This document shows positions 5,515 through 57,777 of a DNA stretch of 64,000 bases, one piece after another (position 1 is the first letter of the stretch; every line of letters starts with the position of its first letter). The DNA lies in the NCBI GenBank assembly GCA_938074205.1, contig CALJES010000006.1:1-64000 (forward strand), read 5' to 3'. Source of the DNA: an uncultured bacterium. GTDB taxonomy: Bacteria > Armatimonadota > UBA5829. The notes under the pieces are model-generated. The model saw only the letters and a program-made list of their open reading frames with translations, was not told the DNA's origin and did not search any database. The position numbers and the translations under genes were made by a program.

Positions 5515-6966
5515 GTGAGAAAAAAGCTACTATTACAAAACCAAAATCTGAGCCTTATACTCATTGTTGTCCTAAGTATAGCCCTCGGCTTCTCTCTTGC
5601 TGCTAATTTCTATCGTCGAGACGTTTCGGTGACGGCTATTGCAGCTTCTGAAAACCCTATTCCGCAGCCGTGGCAAGAAGCATTTGTTTTGGTTGCTGAA
5701 AAGCTGCGACCGTGCATAGTGCACATCAAAAGCGAAAAGATGGTAGAGGTTCCGAGGTTCCCGTGGTTTGACGATTTCTTCTGGCCTTTTGGTGGAGGTC
5801 GAAACAGACCTGAGCCAGAAAAGAGGGTACAACAGGCCACGGGCTCCGGGGTAATAGTAAGATCCGATGGATATATTCTCACAAACAATCACGTGGTAGC
5901 TGGGGCAGATAGAGTCACCGTTAAGTTGGCAGATGGTCGAGAGTTCACTGGAAAGGTTTTGTTAGATCCATACTCCGATCTTGCGCTTGTCAAGATCGAT
6001 ACAAAGGATCTCCCGGCAGCTCAATTCGGGGATTCCGACAAGGTTAAAGTCGGTCAGTGGGTAGCGGCGATAGGAAATCCTTTCGGTCTTGAAAACACGG
6101 TTACTGCAGGCGTAGTAAGCGCAGTAAGACACATTTCCAGCTCTGAGGACCCCTTGCCCAAAGCAGAGGTGATCCAGACTGATGCGTCAATCAATCCTGG
6201 CAATTCCGGAGGGCCACTCGTTGATCTGCAAGGCAGAATAATAGGTATCAACTTTGCCATCTACACCACCTCTGGGGGCAGTGTAGGAGTTGGCTTTGCC
6301 ATCCCATCGAACATCGCTAAGAATGTGATGTCTCAACTGATCGAGAAGGGCAAGGTTGTGAGAGGATACCTGGGCGTCATACCCAGGGATCTGACTCCAG
6401 TACTCAAGGAGAAGCTGGGCGTGCAGCAAGGAGCGTTAGTGGAATCGGTAGACAAGGACACGCCTGCGGAAAAGGCAGGCATTAAGGTAATGGACGTTAT
6501 AGTTAGCGTAGACGGCAAAGCCGTGAATAACAGCGCGGACTTACGTCGAATCGTCCAAAACATTGCGCCCGGCACTAAGGTAAAGGTGGTCGTCGTAAGG
6601 GACAAAACCAGAAAAACGCTGGACGTTACTATCGGTGAACTGCCAGTCGAAGGAGGAACTGCAGGCGATGGCAGTGCGGCCGACAAGATAGGTCTGTCTG
6701 TACAGCCTTTAACGCCCGAGATCGCAAGACAACTAGGCCTAGATGAGTCTGTTAAGGGTGTTGTGGTGCGCAAGGTAGAACCCGGCAGCGCAGCTGACCG
6801 TGCAGGCATCCGCCGAAACGACGTCATAGTTGAAATTGACGGCACTCCTATCACTAGCGTGGCTTCATTTACTAGTTCTATAAACAAACTCAAGTCTGGA
6901 GACACGGCCCTTGTAGTTGTACAAAGAGGTGATCGCACTCAGGTCGTCACATTGAGAATAGACTGA
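5515..6966 (+). CDS. HtrA/DegP-type periplasmic serine protease with two PDZ domains
   Basis: A 483-residue protein. Residues 12-31 are an uncleaved signal anchor or signal peptide. The trypsin-like domain carries the triad His126 (NNHVV), Asp155 (SDLAL) and Ser231 (GNSGGP); the His-to-Ser spacing of 105 equals that of E. coli DegP. Two PDZ domains follow (about 275-365 and 385-480), as in DegP and DegQ. It should degrade or refold misfolded envelope proteins outside the cytoplasmic membrane. A linker around residues 75-105 is rich in Phe, Trp, Pro and Arg, like the LA loop of DegP relatives. The GTG start follows AAAGGAG. It lies 289 bp after the sigma/anti-sigma pair and may belong to its regulon. 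Confidence 0.93.
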   Translation: MRKKLLLQNQNLSLILIVVLSIALGFSLAANFYRRDVSVTAIAASENPIPQPWQEAFVLVAEKLRPCIVHIKSEKMVEVPRFPWFDDFFWPFGGGRNRPEPEKRVQQATGSGVIVRSDGYILTNNHVVAGADRVTVKLADGREFTGKVLLDPYSDLALVKIDTKDLPAAQFGDSDKVKVGQWVAAIGNPFGLENTVTAGVVSAVRHISSSEDPLPKAEVIQTDASINPGNSGGPLVDLQGRIIGINFAIYTTSGGSVGVGFAIPSNIAKNVMSQLIEKGKVVRGYLGVIPRDLTPVLKEKLGVQQGALVESVDKDTPAEKAGIKVMDVIVSVDGKAVNNSADLRRIVQNIAPGTKVKVVVVRDKTRKTLDVTIGELPVEGGTAGDGSAADKIGLSVQPLTPEIARQLGLDESVKGVVVRKVEPGSAADRAGIRRNDVIVEIDGTPITSVASFTSSINKLKSGDTALVVVQRGDRTQVVTLRID

Positions 6967-6983
6967 GAAACTCGCCAAGAACT

Positions 6984-7026
6984 GATGCCCGCCTGACATG
7001 AATTACCCTCAGCGTCGGCGGGCATC
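6984..7026. terminator. Hairpin between convergent htrA and mutL
   Basis: A perfect 10-bp inverted repeat, GATGCCCGCC (6984-6993) and GGCGGGCATC (7017-7026), with a 23-nt loop, placed 18 bp after the htrA stop and 88 bp before the mutL stop. The GC-rich stem suits transcription termination in either direction, although neither side has a clear T-run. Confidence 0.55.
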
Positions 7027-7113
7027 AACATTCTGGGGATGAAATCTTGCTCAGCCTATAGGTTGGTTGATCATTCTTTTAGCCAGTGGGTAACTGGTAA
7101 TACCTAGCGCGTT

Positions 7114-9003
7114 CTACGTGCGCTTGAACTTTCGGTCCAGTTCCCAGTTCGACAGGCTTACAATAATAGGTCTCCCGTGCGGACATACAAACGGGTTTTC
7201 ACATTTCAGCAGGTCTTCCACCAACTGCTTCATTTCTCGGTCGTCAAGTTTCTCTCCAGCCTTTATAGCCATCTTGCATGCTGTGGTAATAAGAACTTGG
7301 TCGGATCTGACTATCAAGTGGCGCTCTACGGATAACTCGACTAGCTCGGCAATAATATCTCTGAGTATCGCTTCTGCCTGTGAAGGTTTTAGCTGAGGAG
7401 GCGCCCCTCGCAATATGAAAGTATCTCTACCAAACTCCTCGAGATCGAATCCTGCTTGGTTGAGCATATCCAATCGCTGACGCACAACAGTTGATTCGCT
7501 CGCAGATAGGGAAATCGTTATCGGCGTCAGCAACCGCTGTATAGCAGATCTGGATTCCGCGTCGAATCTCAGCAGTTGGTCGTATAAGATTCTTTCGTGT
7601 GCAACGTGCTGGTCAATAACGAGCAATCCGTCATCGCATTCAGCCAGAACGTACATATTCCTAGCCTGACCAATTACCCTTACACCAGTCAGAGCAACCG
7701 TTCTGGGTGCTATGAAATCTGCCTCGGGCACTGGCGATTCTTCGACTGGAACCCCCGATCCCTTCTGCCAACTATCCTCTCCTACATCTGATATTTCGCT
7801 TAGTGCCTGTTCCCTTCTGCGTCGGAGTGCCTCCTGAAAAGCAGACAAGTTCATAGGCTGAATGTGTTGTTGAGTCGCAGCATCCGGCCAGGGTACGAAC
7901 AGTTTGCTTGTGATATCTGCTTGCTCACTGGAAATAGGTGCTGGTTTGCCAAGTGGTTCCGCGTGTTCAGAAATGGTAGGGATAGCGGCGCCGGTCGTTA
8001 GTGCCATGTTCACTGAACGGTATACGGCGCTGTGTACTTCCTGCTCGTTCGAGAACTTGACCTCGGACTTAGCCGGGTGAACATTTACGTCCACCAGTTC
8101 AGGGGGAACTTCCAAAAACAACACAGCGACCGGATATCTGCCGCTCGGCAGCAGCCCGCGATACGCATAGTCTAGTGCGTGTGCTATGATCTTGTTGCGA
8201 ATGGGACGTCCATTCACAAAAAAGATTTGATCGCGTCGATTGATTCGCGTCAGCGAAGGGCAGGAAACAAATCCCTCTACCCGCACACCGGGCAGCTCAT
8301 AATGCACTTCGACAAGCTGCTTTGCGATGTCTTTTCCTAAGACCTCAACTATCGAGTTAAGCCGCTGACCAGTCGCCGGCGAGGATAAAACCTCTCTACC
8401 ACCGTGCAGTAGGCGAAAACTCACTGTGGGCCAAGCTAACGCAAACCATCCGACGTATTCAGCTATGTGAGAAAACTCTGTCTGCGCAGACTTGAGGAAC
8501 TTCAACCTCGCAGGAGTATTGAAAAACAGTTTGCGAACGATTATTGTGGTTCCCTGTGGGGCACCGACCGATTCAAGATTGGTAATACTGCCGGCTTCGA
8601 CTTCCAGACGAGTACCTGCTGGTTGGGATTCGTGTTTGGTAATCATCTCCAAAATTGAGATCGAGGCAATGCTTGGGAGAGCTTCTCCTCTAAAGCCAAG
8701 GGTTCGGATAGCTTTCAAATCAGATGCGGACCTGATTTTGGAAGTTGCGTGGCGCTGTAACGAAAGTATAGCATCCTCGCGCGTCATTCCGCATCCATTG
8801 TCAGTAACTTTTATCAGTTCCTTGCCGCCTTGCTCAATGGAGACTGTTATCTGAGTAGCTCCGGCATCGAGCGAGTTCTCCACCAACTCTTTGACCACCG
8901 AAACAGGTCGTTCGACTACTTCACCGGCGGCGATCCGATTAGCGGTGTGTTCATCTAAGATGATTATGCGACTGGCATCAGAGGTTTCACTTTTACTTTG
9001 CAT
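7114..9003 (-). CDS. mutL: DNA mismatch repair protein MutL
   Basis: A 629-residue protein of normal MutL length. The N-terminal GHKL ATPase shows ENSLDAGAT, DNGCGM and GFRGEAL. The C-terminal dimerisation/endonuclease region has GQARNMY, DQHVAHERILYD (residues 464-475), ACKMAIKA and CPHGRP. The last set is typical of MutL proteins that nick DNA, in organisms without MutH. In the metal motif DQHA-x2-E-x4-E, this protein has Val in place of Ala and Asp in place of the last Glu; both are conservative. The gene starts 6 bp after the mutS stop, so the two are coupled. It matches MutS activation and strand incision in mismatch repair. Confidence 0.96.
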   Translation of the reverse strand: MQSKSETSDASRIIILDEHTANRIAAGEVVERPVSVVKELVENSLDAGATQITVSIEQGGKELIKVTDNGCGMTREDAILSLQRHATSKIRSASDLKAIRTLGFRGEALPSIASISILEMITKHESQPAGTRLEVEAGSITNLESVGAPQGTTIIVRKLFFNTPARLKFLKSAQTEFSHIAEYVGWFALAWPTVSFRLLHGGREVLSSPATGQRLNSIVEVLGKDIAKQLVEVHYELPGVRVEGFVSCPSLTRINRRDQIFFVNGRPIRNKIIAHALDYAYRGLLPSGRYPVAVLFLEVPPELVDVNVHPAKSEVKFSNEQEVHSAVYRSVNMALTTGAAIPTISEHAEPLGKPAPISSEQADITSKLFVPWPDAATQQHIQPMNLSAFQEALRRRREQALSEISDVGEDSWQKGSGVPVEESPVPEADFIAPRTVALTGVRVIGQARNMYVLAECDDGLLVIDQHVAHERILYDQLLRFDAESRSAIQRLLTPITISLSASESTVVRQRLDMLNQAGFDLEEFGRDTFILRGAPPQLKPSQAEAILRDIIAELVELSVERHLIVRSDQVLITTACKMAIKAGEKLDDREMKQLVEDLLKCENPFVCPHGRPIIVSLSNWELDRKFKRT

Positions 9004-53336: not shown

Positions 53337-54098
53337 TTATCCAGACGGTGGAGTCATTTTGCGGCCAGCCAATAGCACTCTAAATGCTTGGATAACCAGC
53401 GCGATTGCTACTGAGAGTACAATGGCTTGGAATACCCGGGATCGCCAGGCAGTTTGAACACTTGGCCACCAGTCGTTAACGAGGAAGTTTAGCCGGCCAA
53501 TGAAGAGGGTCATTCTTCCCATAACCGTGGCGCCGAATATAGCCCCAAAACCAATCATCAAAAACCAGCGGCCGGCAGCAGCCGTCTTCTGCACAATTGG
53601 ATTTTCGTGCTCAAAACTGAAGAAGAAATAGGCCATAGAAGAAATCAGTATCACATAGAAAACAATCGCGTTTACGCTCTGCCAGTAGCCTACCGAATTT
53701 CCGAAAATGGGCTTCATAGAAGCTCCCATTTGAGGGAAGTAAATCTCGTAAAAATCTCTGAACATCAATCCGGCTGACAACCCCATAAAAAGCCCAAAAA
53801 TGACACGGCTGATCCACGCGTGCCTCTTGGAATACATAAAATAGAACATGCTCCCCAAGACAGCGGCAAACACCCACTGCCACTGGCCCTTGTGTACCAT
53901 AGGTTGCCACCACTTGGGCTCAAGAACTTGAGACCAAGTCACGTAGACGCCAAAACCTGCCGAAAGACCTATGAATATATGCTCAAACAATCGGTAGAAC
54001 CGATTCTCAGCATACAGAACACTGTAGATTGCGAAGGTGGCAATTGCACCACACCATAATGCAATAGTCTTTGTATTTGTCACAAGCCACTCAGACAA
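53337..54098 (-). CDS. Polytopic membrane protein of the six-gene cluster
   Basis: A 253-residue protein with about seven membrane helices (for example TIALWCGAIATFAIYSVLYA and LFEHIFIGLSAGFGVYVTW). I place the start at a TTG at 54098 behind GGGGAGGT at 7 bp, overlapping the previous stop; a longer frame from 54149 adds 17 residues with no such signal. I do not recognise a family. Last gene of the cluster. Confidence 0.75.
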   Translation of the reverse strand: MSEWLVTNTKTIALWCGAIATFAIYSVLYAENRFYRLFEHIFIGLSAGFGVYVTWSQVLEPKWWQPMVHKGQWQWVFAAVLGSMFYFMYSKRHAWISRVIFGLFMGLSAGLMFRDFYEIYFPQMGASMKPIFGNSVGYWQSVNAIVFYVILISSMAYFFFSFEHENPIVQKTAAAGRWFLMIGFGAIFGATVMGRMTLFIGRLNFLVNDWWPSVQTAWRSRVFQAIVLSVAIALVIQAFRVLLAGRKMTPPSG

Positions 54099-54951
54099 TG
54101 CTTTTACCTCCCCTGCGTTGAGGAGAGCGTTTGCTAAGTGCATAACCAAGGTTTCCCAGCACTATGAGGAGGAGGATGAAGATGTGAGCACAGGAAAGAG
54201 CCCAAGATGCAGCAGCAGCATATGTTCTTTCGTTTTCCATTCCAATAAGCGTCTCATATTGTGCAGCACCTATCACACCGTTCAGCATGCCATCCAATTG
54301 TCCTGAGTCCAAGTATGGGTAGGCCTCTGCCGACATAACCGCTGTAGGACAGAACACAAGAGGGATGTTAAAGGGTTGATTAAAATAGGCAATCCATGAT
54401 GAAACAGTTCCCGAAGGAGTTATCTCCACAACGGCACCGATGTCACGATAGTCTCGGACGTCTCTAGTCGCAGGTATGTATTTGAGCTTCTTGCCAAATC
54501 TGTCAACTTTGAACACCCCTTGGAAGCTTTTGCCCAGACCTCGTATGATGGCGTACATGGGTCCAGGATTATAACCCAGGTGAACCCAGTCTGTACCGTA
54601 ACGTTTACCCAACTCCTTGCTAATCTCTGAAGCATCCTCATACGTAAGCTGGGAACCAAGCTGATCCCAACTGAGTATTACGAATCGGGTGCCTTCCCTG
54701 AGCAAATGTCTGACAATTGCCCTTGTCTGGGGTTCATTCTCTGCTCGCGTACCAGGACCCCATACGCACGAGACGATTACTATCTTGTCTTTCGGCACTT
54801 TCCGCAGTGTTTGGTAAGCGTTCTGCACTTCCGAAAATACTATCCGCGGATGGCGACTTGGCCGCTGCAAAAGTGGTACAGCAATAACTACCGCAATCAG
54901 AAGATACAAGATGCGCCTATCTATGGTTTGCAGCTTCTCAAAAACGTTCAT
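54091..54951 (-). CDS. Bitopic membrane protein with a large soluble domain, unknown function
   Basis: A 286-residue protein. Residues ~12-28 are an N-terminal membrane anchor (ILYLLIAVVIAVPLL); a second helix lies near the C-terminus (residues ~250-270, HIFILLLIVLGNLGYAL). The ~200 residues between have an alpha/beta look (VIVSCVWGPGTR, FVILSWDQLGSQL) and a Gly-Pro-rich patch. No family recognised. It precedes the last cluster gene with an 8-bp overlap. Confidence 0.75.
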   Translation of the reverse strand: MNVFEKLQTIDRRILYLLIAVVIAVPLLQRPSRHPRIVFSEVQNAYQTLRKVPKDKIVIVSCVWGPGTRAENEPQTRAIVRHLLREGTRFVILSWDQLGSQLTYEDASEISKELGKRYGTDWVHLGYNPGPMYAIIRGLGKSFQGVFKVDRFGKKLKYIPATRDVRDYRDIGAVVEITPSGTVSSWIAYFNQPFNIPLVFCPTAVMSAEAYPYLDSGQLDGMLNGVIGAAQYETLIGMENERTYAAAASWALSCAHIFILLLIVLGNLGYALSKRSPQRRGGKSIV

Positions 54952-54974
54952 ACATAAGCCTCAGTGGCCACATA

Positions 54975-55811
54975 TTAGAGCTGTCGATCGAAAAAATTAC
55001 CCCTCTCGAGACTGAGCCAGATACGTAAGCCCATCGCCAAACTACCCACAGCAATGCCGAACGCTATAGCCCTCTGAGCCGCCATATTCGGGCTTGTAAG
55101 AAGCCAGTAGCCTACCCTTTCCACCCGCAGTGCAGACAGAATACCGGATTGCGGTAGCCAGTTGGTAATCTCCGCTCCAACAGGCACGAGAGCAAGCATT
55201 ATTATTGCCGCTGCTGCCATCATTAGCCCAGCTTCGAGCGACTTGACGCGAAATGCACGATAAGCGGCAGAAACGATATAGAACGCTATCAGTGAAAACA
55301 TCGTGGCGTCCAAAGATGTCAGGAATCCGCTGAACAAGATAGTGAATACGCTTTCTGAGGCTTTGCGGATAGTGCTACCTTGTGTGTAGTCCTTCAGTAG
55401 TCCAGCACCCAAAATCGCAAGGAATGAAATAAAGAACGCTGCGCTGTTGCACCAGCCTCTGCCGCGTTTCACAACTGCGCGGCCATGTATGACGAACAAA
55501 TTCCAAACCCCAAGAAGCAGAGCAAAACTCCAGATGATTTGCGTAAGGGTTGCAACAAGAGGCTGCACTTCAGATAAAGGGTTCCTAGGTGGTTCGAGTG
55601 GCCAGAAAGCCGGCGGTATCAAGAACTCAAACGCGTAGTACAGGCCTGCCAGGAAAGTAACCGCAGCGACGATAGTCTTCCTATAACGCGGCGGAGTTGA
55701 GGTGAGCATTATCAGCGCTAAACATCCTAGCGATAATGCACCACACAGAAACACAGCGAACTGCCACCCATATCTTGGTGCTGCGATCCAGTTCCATACG
55801 GAACCCATCAT
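54975..55811 (-). CDS. Polytopic membrane protein of the six-gene cluster
   Basis: A 278-residue protein with seven or eight membrane helices (WQFAVFLCGALSLGCLALIML, LVATLTQIIWSFALLLGVW, AGLMMAAAAIIMLALVPVG). Loops are short. No family recognised. It lies 10 bp after the DUF6754 gene and 23 bp before the next, so the whole set is cotranscribed. Confidence 0.75.
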   Translation of the reverse strand: MMGSVWNWIAAPRYGWQFAVFLCGALSLGCLALIMLTSTPPRYRKTIVAAVTFLAGLYYAFEFLIPPAFWPLEPPRNPLSEVQPLVATLTQIIWSFALLLGVWNLFVIHGRAVVKRGRGWCNSAAFFISFLAILGAGLLKDYTQGSTIRKASESVFTILFSGFLTSLDATMFSLIAFYIVSAAYRAFRVKSLEAGLMMAAAAIIMLALVPVGAEITNWLPQSGILSALRVERVGYWLLTSPNMAAQRAIAFGIAVGSLAMGLRIWLSLERGNFFDRQL

Positions 55812-55821
55812 TAGCTTATGA

Positions 55822-56634
55822 CTAGCTCCTCGGGAAGTACTTGGCTATAGTTGCCGTAAAATCGCACAACCAACCCACGGCCGGACAGACAGCCTGAGCC
55901 GTAAATGCAATCGCTCCCAGCACAATGATTCCGATTATTACAAGCTTACCTAGGTCCTGTCCTACAAGGCTGCCGAGCAGCGTAGGCTCTCGCGACAAGT
56001 AAGCGCTGGCAGCATAATACTCGTCACCAATGATGGTGTAATCGCAGGAAGCAAGAAAGAAAGGTATCTGAGTAGTTGCTGGTGTACCGGCCACCTGAAT
56101 CGCACCTACCATCTGACCATTTTCGGCGAGGATCAGAGATTCGGCGAAGTAATAACCGAAGTAGAGAGCTGAAGCAACCTTCTCGCGATGTAGTATCCCT
56201 ACTACCCCAGAGGCCCAAGCGAACTGTCGGTCAGAGAGGAATCTTACATCTTCAGGGTCGAACCGCTCAGGAACTCCCTCCGCATTGTAAGCATCTTTGG
56301 CGACCTCCTCTGCGACTGTATAAAGCACAGGATCAGCTAGTGGCACGATAACTCGGGTGCCGTACCTCGCTGCCTTACGCACTACGTGCGACAAGATCGC
56401 CATTGATTGCAAACCGACAATGTCAAGACCTGAAAGCCCAGGAGCGAATAATATCGGCTTTCCCATTTCGGTAGCACGTCCAACGGCTTCGTCAAGTGCG
56501 GAAAGGCCAGGAATTCTGCGAATGAACAATTCGCGTCCTCGTCTGGCAGATAAAATCTTCCAGAGTATGAAGAAAACAAGTAAGCTTTCAACTATCCACA
56601 CAGCCGGGCTTGCGTATTGACTGGCTTGGCTCAT
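55822..56634 (-). CDS. DUF6754-like membrane protein
   Basis: A 270-residue protein. An N-terminal helix (VWIVESLLVFFILWKIL) and a C-terminal helix (VIIGIIVLGAIAFTAQAV) flank a ~190-residue alpha/beta domain with PILFAPGLSGLDIVGLQS and VASALYFGYYFAESLILAE. The pattern matches proteins annotated as DUF6754, of unknown function; I recall the family from pattern rather than from a search. It overlaps the preceding gene by 4 bp (ATGA). Confidence 0.75.
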   Translation of the reverse strand: MSQASQYASPAVWIVESLLVFFILWKILSARRGRELFIRRIPGLSALDEAVGRATEMGKPILFAPGLSGLDIVGLQSMAILSHVVRKAARYGTRVIVPLADPVLYTVAEEVAKDAYNAEGVPERFDPEDVRFLSDRQFAWASGVVGILHREKVASALYFGYYFAESLILAENGQMVGAIQVAGTPATTQIPFFLASCDYTIIGDEYYAASAYLSREPTLLGSLVGQDLGKLVIIGIIVLGAIAFTAQAVCPAVGWLCDFTATIAKYFPRS

Positions 56635-57023
56635 TTTCTGCTAACCTCAGAGTTTTTGGAAGCAGAGGGCGCACTCAGATCTTCGGATTCTGGGCTGCTG
56701 GGGTCTGCAGGCGACGCATTTGCAGCTGCATCTCTTTCAGCAGCCATTTCCTCTATACGACTTATCAAAAGTTCCACATATTTGCTATCTGCCAGCAGTT
56801 TGCTCAAATCAGCCATGCGGCTCGCACCTATCAATGGTCCCAGAAACGGCATAGCAACTATTGCGGCCTGACTCGCCAGAAACGACAGCGGTTTGTGCAT
56901 CTCAAAAAATAACACTGCTGGTGTCTCGAGCCTGCGGTTCACTATATACCTTGCGATGGAATCTGCCAACGCAGAAGCTTCATCCGGTGTGAGCTGTTTT
57001 GTCAAGTCTAAATCTATAGGCAT
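56631..57023 (-). CDS. Small cluster protein with disordered C-terminus
   Basis: A 130-residue protein. The N-terminal two-thirds are amphipathic (TPDEASALADSIARYIVNRR, LASQAAIVAMPFLGPLIG), possibly membrane-touching; the C-terminal ~30 residues are Ser/Pro/Ala-rich. The start overlaps the stop of the previous gene by 10 bp. No family recognised. Confidence 0.7.
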   Translation of the reverse strand: MPIDLDLTKQLTPDEASALADSIARYIVNRRLETPAVLFFEMHKPLSFLASQAAIVAMPFLGPLIGASRMADLSKLLADSKYVELLISRIEEMAAERDAAANASPADPSSPESEDLSAPSASKNSEVSRK

Positions 57024-57457
57024 AGGTCTCTAGCCGATCTCACAGCTTCAATCACTTGTTCGCGGTTGCCGTTAAATCGCAAGTATACACCTCTGAACGC
57101 TTCAAGCCTTGTACGACCGCCGACAGTACTGAGCTTAATTCCATTTTCATCCAAGAAGCATTTTCTTACTTGGAACCATTCTACTTCTGTGGTCTTCAAC
57201 ACTGTTGTGCACACGGCTTTGGTGGACGTAATTCGATACCTAACGGGAAACACAAATTCAGCTACCGATCCCAGCAATACCAGAACGACTGCGATTGACC
57301 CAACAGCACCGATAACAAACCACGCACTAGATGCGGCCAACACGATCAACAGTATCGTAACCGCCAGCTTGGCTGGATGATTAGCTGCCAAGTGAACCGT
57401 CCACGAAAGTATTTCCCTCTCTTCACTCGATGGTGCCGGCCACGAGACGACTTCCAT
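57014..57457 (-). CDS. Bitopic membrane protein, PH-like domain, first gene of cluster
   Basis: A 147-residue protein. Two hydrophobic segments (about residues 30-65: LAVTILLIVLAASSAWFVIGAVGSIAVVLVLLG) are followed by a cytoplasmic domain with VFPVRYRITSTKAV and RTRLEAFRGVYLRFNG, the pattern of bacterial PH-like (bPH) domains. First gene of the six-gene unit, 60 bp downstream of a strong promoter. No clear Shine-Dalgarno before its ATG. Confidence 0.7.
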   Translation of the reverse strand: MEVVSWPAPSSEEREILSWTVHLAANHPAKLAVTILLIVLAASSAWFVIGAVGSIAVVLVLLGSVAEFVFPVRYRITSTKAVCTTVLKTTEVEWFQVRKCFLDENGIKLSTVGGRTRLEAFRGVYLRFNGNREQVIEAVRSARDLCL

Positions 57458-57777
57458 AAATCTAATCTATCTATTGCAAAACTGCCAGAAGGGACATACC
57501 GAAGAATAACTATCGTCCGCATAATAGTATGGGACGACCGCCCAACCTGTCAAGATTGCCTCGCGGGTCTTACTACAGAACGATTATTTGCATCGGTGTC
57601 AGCAATGAGGTGTGTCGAATTGGAGAAAGGGCTGTTGCGATCTAAGATGGATGCCAGAATAGCATTGTTTGACCGCGGTATTCGTGTAACGAAAACTGGA
57701 GAGCTTATGGAAGCAAGGAACAAATAAGCAAACCTGTTGAAGAAAGGGACAGAGGTGTTGAAGCAGTGCGAAGACTG
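57458..57777. other. Intergenic region between motB and the membrane cluster
   Basis: 320 bp. It carries the cluster promoter at 57524-57553. A 116-codon plus-strand frame (57377-57727) lies here but overlaps the 5' end of the cluster and has no Shine-Dalgarno, so I do not call it. No RNA or repeat was seen. Confidence 0.6.
57524..57553 (-). promoter_or_regulatory. Promoter of the six-gene membrane cluster
   Basis: Leftward perfect TTGACA (57553..57548), an 18-bp spacer, TACTAT (57529..57524). Predicted start near 57517, a leader of about 60 nt. Confidence 0.75.

Follow-up and report, generated by a model that had tools for sequence, protein, structure and literature searches.

Eight genes of an uncultured member of the Armatimonadota (lineage UBA5829) very probably make up one functional system. 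Six of them are open reading frames (ORFs) on the minus strand of contig CALJES010000006.1 (assembly GCA_938074205.1), at 53337-57457 of the 64,000-nucleotide stretch that we analysed (the window), and we named them P1 to P6 from 57457 down to 53337. The other two lie outside the window and encode an ATPase of the MutL/GlmL type and a protein that we call BSH. The original prediction, made from the window alone, had picked the six genes as the likeliest undescribed system there. This view has held: the gene order is kept across phyla, and our searches placed none of the members in a known transporter or secretion system. The system is larger than six genes, since MutL and BSH belong to it, and of the six only one part is universal: the unit is the P3-P4-P5-P6 cassette (hereafter the quartet), which is kept across phyla, whereas P1 and P2 are found mainly in Armatimonadota.

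Only P3 could be assigned to a named family. It is a full-length member of DUF6754 (PF20539; E 1e-95, 320 bits against a cut-off of 27, positions 11-249 of 257), which turns the earlier label "DUF6754-like" into true membership, and Pfam assigns this family no function. Neither Pfam nor NCBIfam offers a separate entry for the partners of DUF6754 (P4 to P6, P1, P2 and BSH); the five of these encoded in the window gave nothing above cut-off in either library. A literature search found no publication naming DUF6754 or PF20539 and nothing on the whole system.

We determined the distribution of the family in 201 Armatimonadota genomes, 140 of them of high quality, and in 14 model genomes. DUF6754 was found in 173 of the 201 (127 of the 140 good ones) and in none of the model genomes searched. 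Searching genome contigs yielded at least 574 matching loci, 80 of which were examined; the closest relative of P3 among the matches listed was JAAYKG010000097 (Armatimonadota, 72% identity). Outside Armatimonadota, the examined loci came from WOR-3/Stahlbacteria, Poribacteria, Latescibacterota, Fermentibacterota (Aegiribacteria, Sabulitectum), Zixibacteria, Coatesbacteria, Cloacimonadota, CSSED10-310, Mcinerneyibacteriota and a Planctomycetota metagenome-assembled genome (MAG), under lineage names as deposited, some of which are surely misassigned. The WOR-3 phylum carries DUF6754 in 54 of 60 genomes, usually in two to five copies, and the phylum containing the Planctomycetota-labelled MAG in 16 of 59. 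Besides Armatimonadota, at least eight further lineages of phylum rank have the quartet.

Gene order was scored with an iterated profile per protein, using only P3 copies with sufficient downstream DNA. P4, P5 and P6 follow P3 on the same strand and in this order in 98 of 109 testable copies, and among the 11 exceptions five are tandem copies of DUF6754 with P4 and P5 behind them (the counts draw on two locus sets, which overlap in part). Directly upstream of P3, P2 and P1 were found in 47 of 112 copies, chiefly in Armatimonadota, where most lineages have them ahead of P3; P1 and P2 also occur in Fermentibacterota. P1 and P2 are an accessory, lineage-dependent addition; P3 to P6 are the universal core. 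Quartets in two or three tandem copies occur outside Armatimonadota (L132, L150, L117, L140); in one of these loci, from a WOR-3 genome, an ARPP-1 family gene (PF20208, L140:11090-12004) lies between two tandem DUF6754 quartets. Contig C18 of the window's genome begins with another complete quartet (L157:408-3700); behind it, in the same direction, are genes for two large proteins that appear to be secreted, one of 819 aa with a weak TPR match and one of 804 aa with a PA14 domain. The genes flanking the cluster showed no common theme across phyla (RecO, GlmU, PrsA, dehydroquinate synthase, EF-G, TonB receptor, Wza-like export, transketolase).

Clustering of the neighbours yielded two further families, a MutL/GlmL-type ASKHA ATPase (PF13941) and BSH (~370 aa). 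They form a two-gene operon on contig C12 of the window's genome, with MutL at G000:C12:64892-66313 (PF13941, E 1e-132). Fermentibacterota arrange the genes as P1-P2-MutL-BSH-P3-P4-P5-P6, or parts of this order; MutL-BSH-P3 are contiguous in CSSED10-310, Zixibacteria and some Armatimonadota; and the order P1 to P6 followed by MutL-BSH was found in one Armatimonadota locus (L053) and in the Planctomycetota MAG (L113). BSH was present in 20 of 22 non-Armatimonadota genomes tested, and the partnership of MutL-BSH with the quartet is obligate-looking. In many genomes two quartets are accompanied by only one BSH and one MutL, so one MutL-BSH pair appears to serve several membrane modules.

In Armatimonadota, P3, P5, BSH and MutL share one pattern of presence and loss. 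Of the 201 genomes, 169 had both P3 and P5, 4 had only P3, 3 had only P5 and 25 had neither (Fisher p 1e-24); the corresponding counts for P3 and BSH were 171, 2, 11 and 17 (p 2e-15). Among the 140 high-quality genomes, P3 never occurred without BSH, BSH occurred without P3 in three (fragmented) and ten had neither (p 5e-13); all three p-values make the evidence look stronger than it is, as related genomes are not independent. The ten negative genomes (G004, G007, G019, G045, G057, G104, G114, G126, G181 and G184) fall in four families (f9, f11, f13 and f16), which suggests at least four separate losses, and MutL is absent from them too, bar one sub-cut-off match in G104. Two of them, G181 and G184 (genus g113, family f16), are 1.5 Mb in size at 97% completeness, about half the size of related genomes; P3, P5, BSH and MutL are all gone from them, while MotA and Omp85 are kept. 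Loss of the outer membrane was considered as a cause of absence and rejected, Omp85 being found in 25 of 25 genomes.

These patterns bear on one alternative, that the membrane genes are functionally separate and co-transcribed, together by chance or selfish linkage. The interaction of the subunits is itself deduced, which gives this view some room, but order is conserved across phyla and linkage cannot account for the joint loss with MutL-BSH, because in many of these lineages MutL, BSH and the quartet are far from one another or not even on one contig. We consider it very improbable.

The adjacency of the cluster to motAB suggested another role, in a flagellar or gliding apparatus. The original prediction had noted that motAB is next to the cluster; it lies directly upstream both in the window, where motB ends 320 bp from P1, and in the sister species (L033). 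This neighbourhood is confined to the genus, and a functional tie did not survive comparison of distributions, since MotA is discordant with P3 in both directions: six P3-negative genomes have MotA (G007, G057, G114, G126, G181 and G184) and three P3-positive genomes lack it (G028, G082 and G013). A role in motility is therefore rejected, and the idea of a flagellar or gliding part is largely refuted and hardly credible. The intergenic region between motB and P1 (57458-57777) measures 320 bp, against 157 bp in the sister species, and is thus ~160 bp longer.

To consider what the system might do, we turn to predicted structures. AlphaFold models of P3 and P5, built on alignments of ~70 relatives, reached pLDDT values of 93.9 and 94.5, respectively, and both are predicted to consist of a transmembrane segment, a Rossmann-like domain and a second transmembrane segment, in agreement with the bitopic P5 with a soluble domain that had been proposed. 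P4 and P6, expected to be multi-helix proteins, have ~7 transmembrane helices each. Despite their similar architectures, no homology could be demonstrated between P3 and P5 or between P4 and P6 (hhalign probability ~1% in both cases). A sequence search of PDB returned no homologue for any subunit tested. The fold search against PDB covered P3 and P5; P3 had no significant match, and the best match of P5 was the molybdenum-cofactor carrier 2IZ5 (E 4.6e-4, TM-score 0.52 on the target, 18% identity), a SLOG/LOG-like Rossmannoid. This match is weak and probably at the level of fold only, and P5 differs from the carrier in being bitopic and probably extracytoplasmic.

Topology can be predicted from the sequences of the relatives. 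In other phyla, P3 has an apparent signal peptide and one or more FN3 domains before the first transmembrane segment, so its N-terminus should be outside and the DUF6754 domain cytoplasmic. Relatives of ~1000 aa, with very large N-terminal extracytoplasmic extensions, occur in Cloacimonadota and Mcinerneyibacteriota (L134:359-3394 and 5787-8720; L146:567-4049). Because P5 starts with a positively charged IDRR stretch and has an RR-rich end after its last transmembrane segment, the positive-inside rule would place its soluble domain outside. A transmembrane sensing or signalling complex could be built in this way, with P5 (and FN3 in other phyla) sensing the periplasm and P3 relaying to cytosolic partners. 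The ligand-type soluble domains on either side of the membrane, the FN3 extensions of P3 and the PH-like character of P1 would suit such a sensor. Yet our neighbour analysis showed no consistent link to any kinase, cyclase, response regulator or sigma factor, and occurrence in nearly all members of two phyla resembles that of a housekeeping system, which makes a sensor improbable.

Our best overall explanation, held at about even chances, is that P3 to P6 are the membrane part of a dedicated, previously undescribed cell-envelope machine serviced by MutL-BSH. The four proteins would physically form one inner-membrane complex, with P4 and P6 as the membrane core, the Rossmann-like domain of P3 in the cytoplasm and that of P5 outside. 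The cytosolic MutL-BSH pair would dock on this complex, where ATP would be used to load, open or reset it; one pair would usually serve several quartet copies, and P1 and P2 would act as accessory proteins at the membrane surface. The activity that we favour over others, possible but doubtful, is the passage of a ligand or envelope building block through the inner membrane, by transport or hand-over with the assistance of ATP.

Several points weigh against this explanation. The complex and its activity are inferred from genes and models; no known transporter fold was matched; and the varied neighbours between phyla point to no substrate. The other known members of the MutL family work for enzymes rather than for transporters. 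Moreover, Fermentibacterota and CSSED10-310 have fused MutL-BSH paralogues of 909-1046 aa, which are second paralogues away from DUF6754 quartets, and the MutL-BSH pair may have other clients too. These fusions (L178:325-3465, 1046 aa; L181:2057-4834, 925 aa; L182:2-2728, at least 909 aa) contain a duplicated barrel-sandwich segment. Unfused second pairs were also seen (L179:118-2933 and L180:2-2832), in which BSH is without the C-terminal KOW-like segment, and in L179 an M1-peptidase-like gene is next. BSH matches with an in-frame stop, which resembled recoding, turned out to mark where shorter paralogues or MutL-BSH fusions end.

The identity of the ATPase raises the main rival, a membrane-bound enzyme complex in which P3 and P5 would use their Rossmann-like domains for catalysis or cofactor binding, with MutL-BSH as a reactivase or chaperone that repairs the cofactor or inserts it. 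GlmL, EutA and DdrA are thought to do reactivase or chaperone work for B12 enzymes, and the partner ATPase belongs to the same family as GlmL/MutL (PF13941, TIGR01319), which is accessory to methylaspartate (glutamate) mutase; it retains the phosphate-binding motifs DCGSTTTK and DIGGATTD. No other subunit comes close to P3 in conservation (23 invariant columns across 70 sequences), and several of the invariant residues of P3 (G66, G160, G203 and E205) are near strand ends, where Rossmann folds usually bind ligands; the cofactor carrier matched by P5 points the same way. However, the partner MutL differs from GlmL: the relatives tested do not reach the GlmL equivalog cut-offs, it forms an operon with BSH plus membrane quartets, and it is sometimes fused to BSH. 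An accessory role for glutamate mutase is rejected, as its subunit E (PF06368) is absent from 24 of 25 genomes tested, including that of the window, and the sole genome that has it (G063) has a second, higher-scoring MutL. Our searches gave no catalytic motif or enzyme family, and two polytopic subunits exceed the need of an enzyme anchor. We regard the enzyme complex as rather unlikely.

The N-terminus of BSH weakly resembles barrel-sandwich-hybrid domains (E 2.5e-5 to 0.019), namely those of RnfC and NqrA (RnfC_N, PF13375; NqrA_N, PF05896) and biotin-lipoyl domains. Unlike RnfC and NqrA, it is below most cut-offs and has no flavin, quinone or SLBB domain that we could find, nor are Rnf/Nqr membrane subunits near it. 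Transporter and secretion families were not matched by any member in Pfam, NCBIfam, PDB by sequence or PDB by fold (P3 and P5). We rate the system as fitting no known kind in the libraries searched; the fold of P4, P6 or the complex could reveal a distant known relative. Anti-phage defence was rejected, the only PADLOC match being a weak one of P2 (E 0.003) and presence being near-universal in two phyla. An origin from phages or plasmids was also rejected: no relatives were found in viral contigs or plasmids, and PHROGs gave only weak matches, to families without an assigned function.

In the window, tight packing was confirmed, with all neighbours overlapping or at most 23 bp apart. P1 (57014..57457, 147 aa) has one or more N-terminal membrane segments and a C-terminal domain; its PH-like label is weak, as bPH_6 matched 5 of 29 relatives (best E 0.002) and not the window P1 itself. 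P2 (56631..57023, 130 aa) overlaps P1 by 10 nt and combines a conserved amphipathic/hydrophobic stretch (PAILFLEMHKPLSFLASQ) with the variable, disordered C-tail that had been predicted; searches of Pfam, PADLOC and PDB gave no match of note. P3 (55822..56634, 270 aa) overlaps P2 by 4 nt and is separated by 10 nt from P4 (54975..55811, 278 aa), which has a conserved ATMFSLLAFYIASAAYRAFR core. After a gap of 23 nt follows P5 (54091..54951, 286 aa), and then P6 (53337..54149, 270 aa), with a conserved GFGAxFGxTVMARxSLLIGR motif. The listed start of P6 (TTG 54149) implies an overlap of 59 nt with P5; an in-frame TTG at 54098 is probably the real start, because a AGGGGAGGT box precedes it by ~7 nt and the overlap shrinks to 8 nt. 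Upstream of P1, the predicted sigma-70-type promoter (TTGACA-18 nt-TACTAT, 57524..57553, minus strand) was recovered, in a block near-identical in the sister species within diverged intergenic surroundings. This conservation matters because consensus matches alone say little: a bare scan found 12 sites where 6.3 were expected.

Collectively, eight proteins, seven without a functional name and one known only as a member of an ATPase family with other clients, act as one conserved system. It spans whole phyla, mostly uncultured, and in Armatimonadota is about as widespread as housekeeping genes. DUF6754 gains its first partners and a testable ATPase, and MutL-type ATPases are suggested to act outside B12 mutases. 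Since Armatimonadota include cultured members (Chthonomonas, Fimbriimonas), biochemistry is possible. We tentatively propose an inner-membrane machine of a new class, assisted by ATP: an ASKHA (MutL/GlmL-type) ATPase, together with a barrel-sandwich adaptor, would drive a complex of four subunits whose Rossmann-like domains lie on either side of the membrane, and such a machine may be core envelope machinery in Armatimonadota, WOR-3 and several other phyla.

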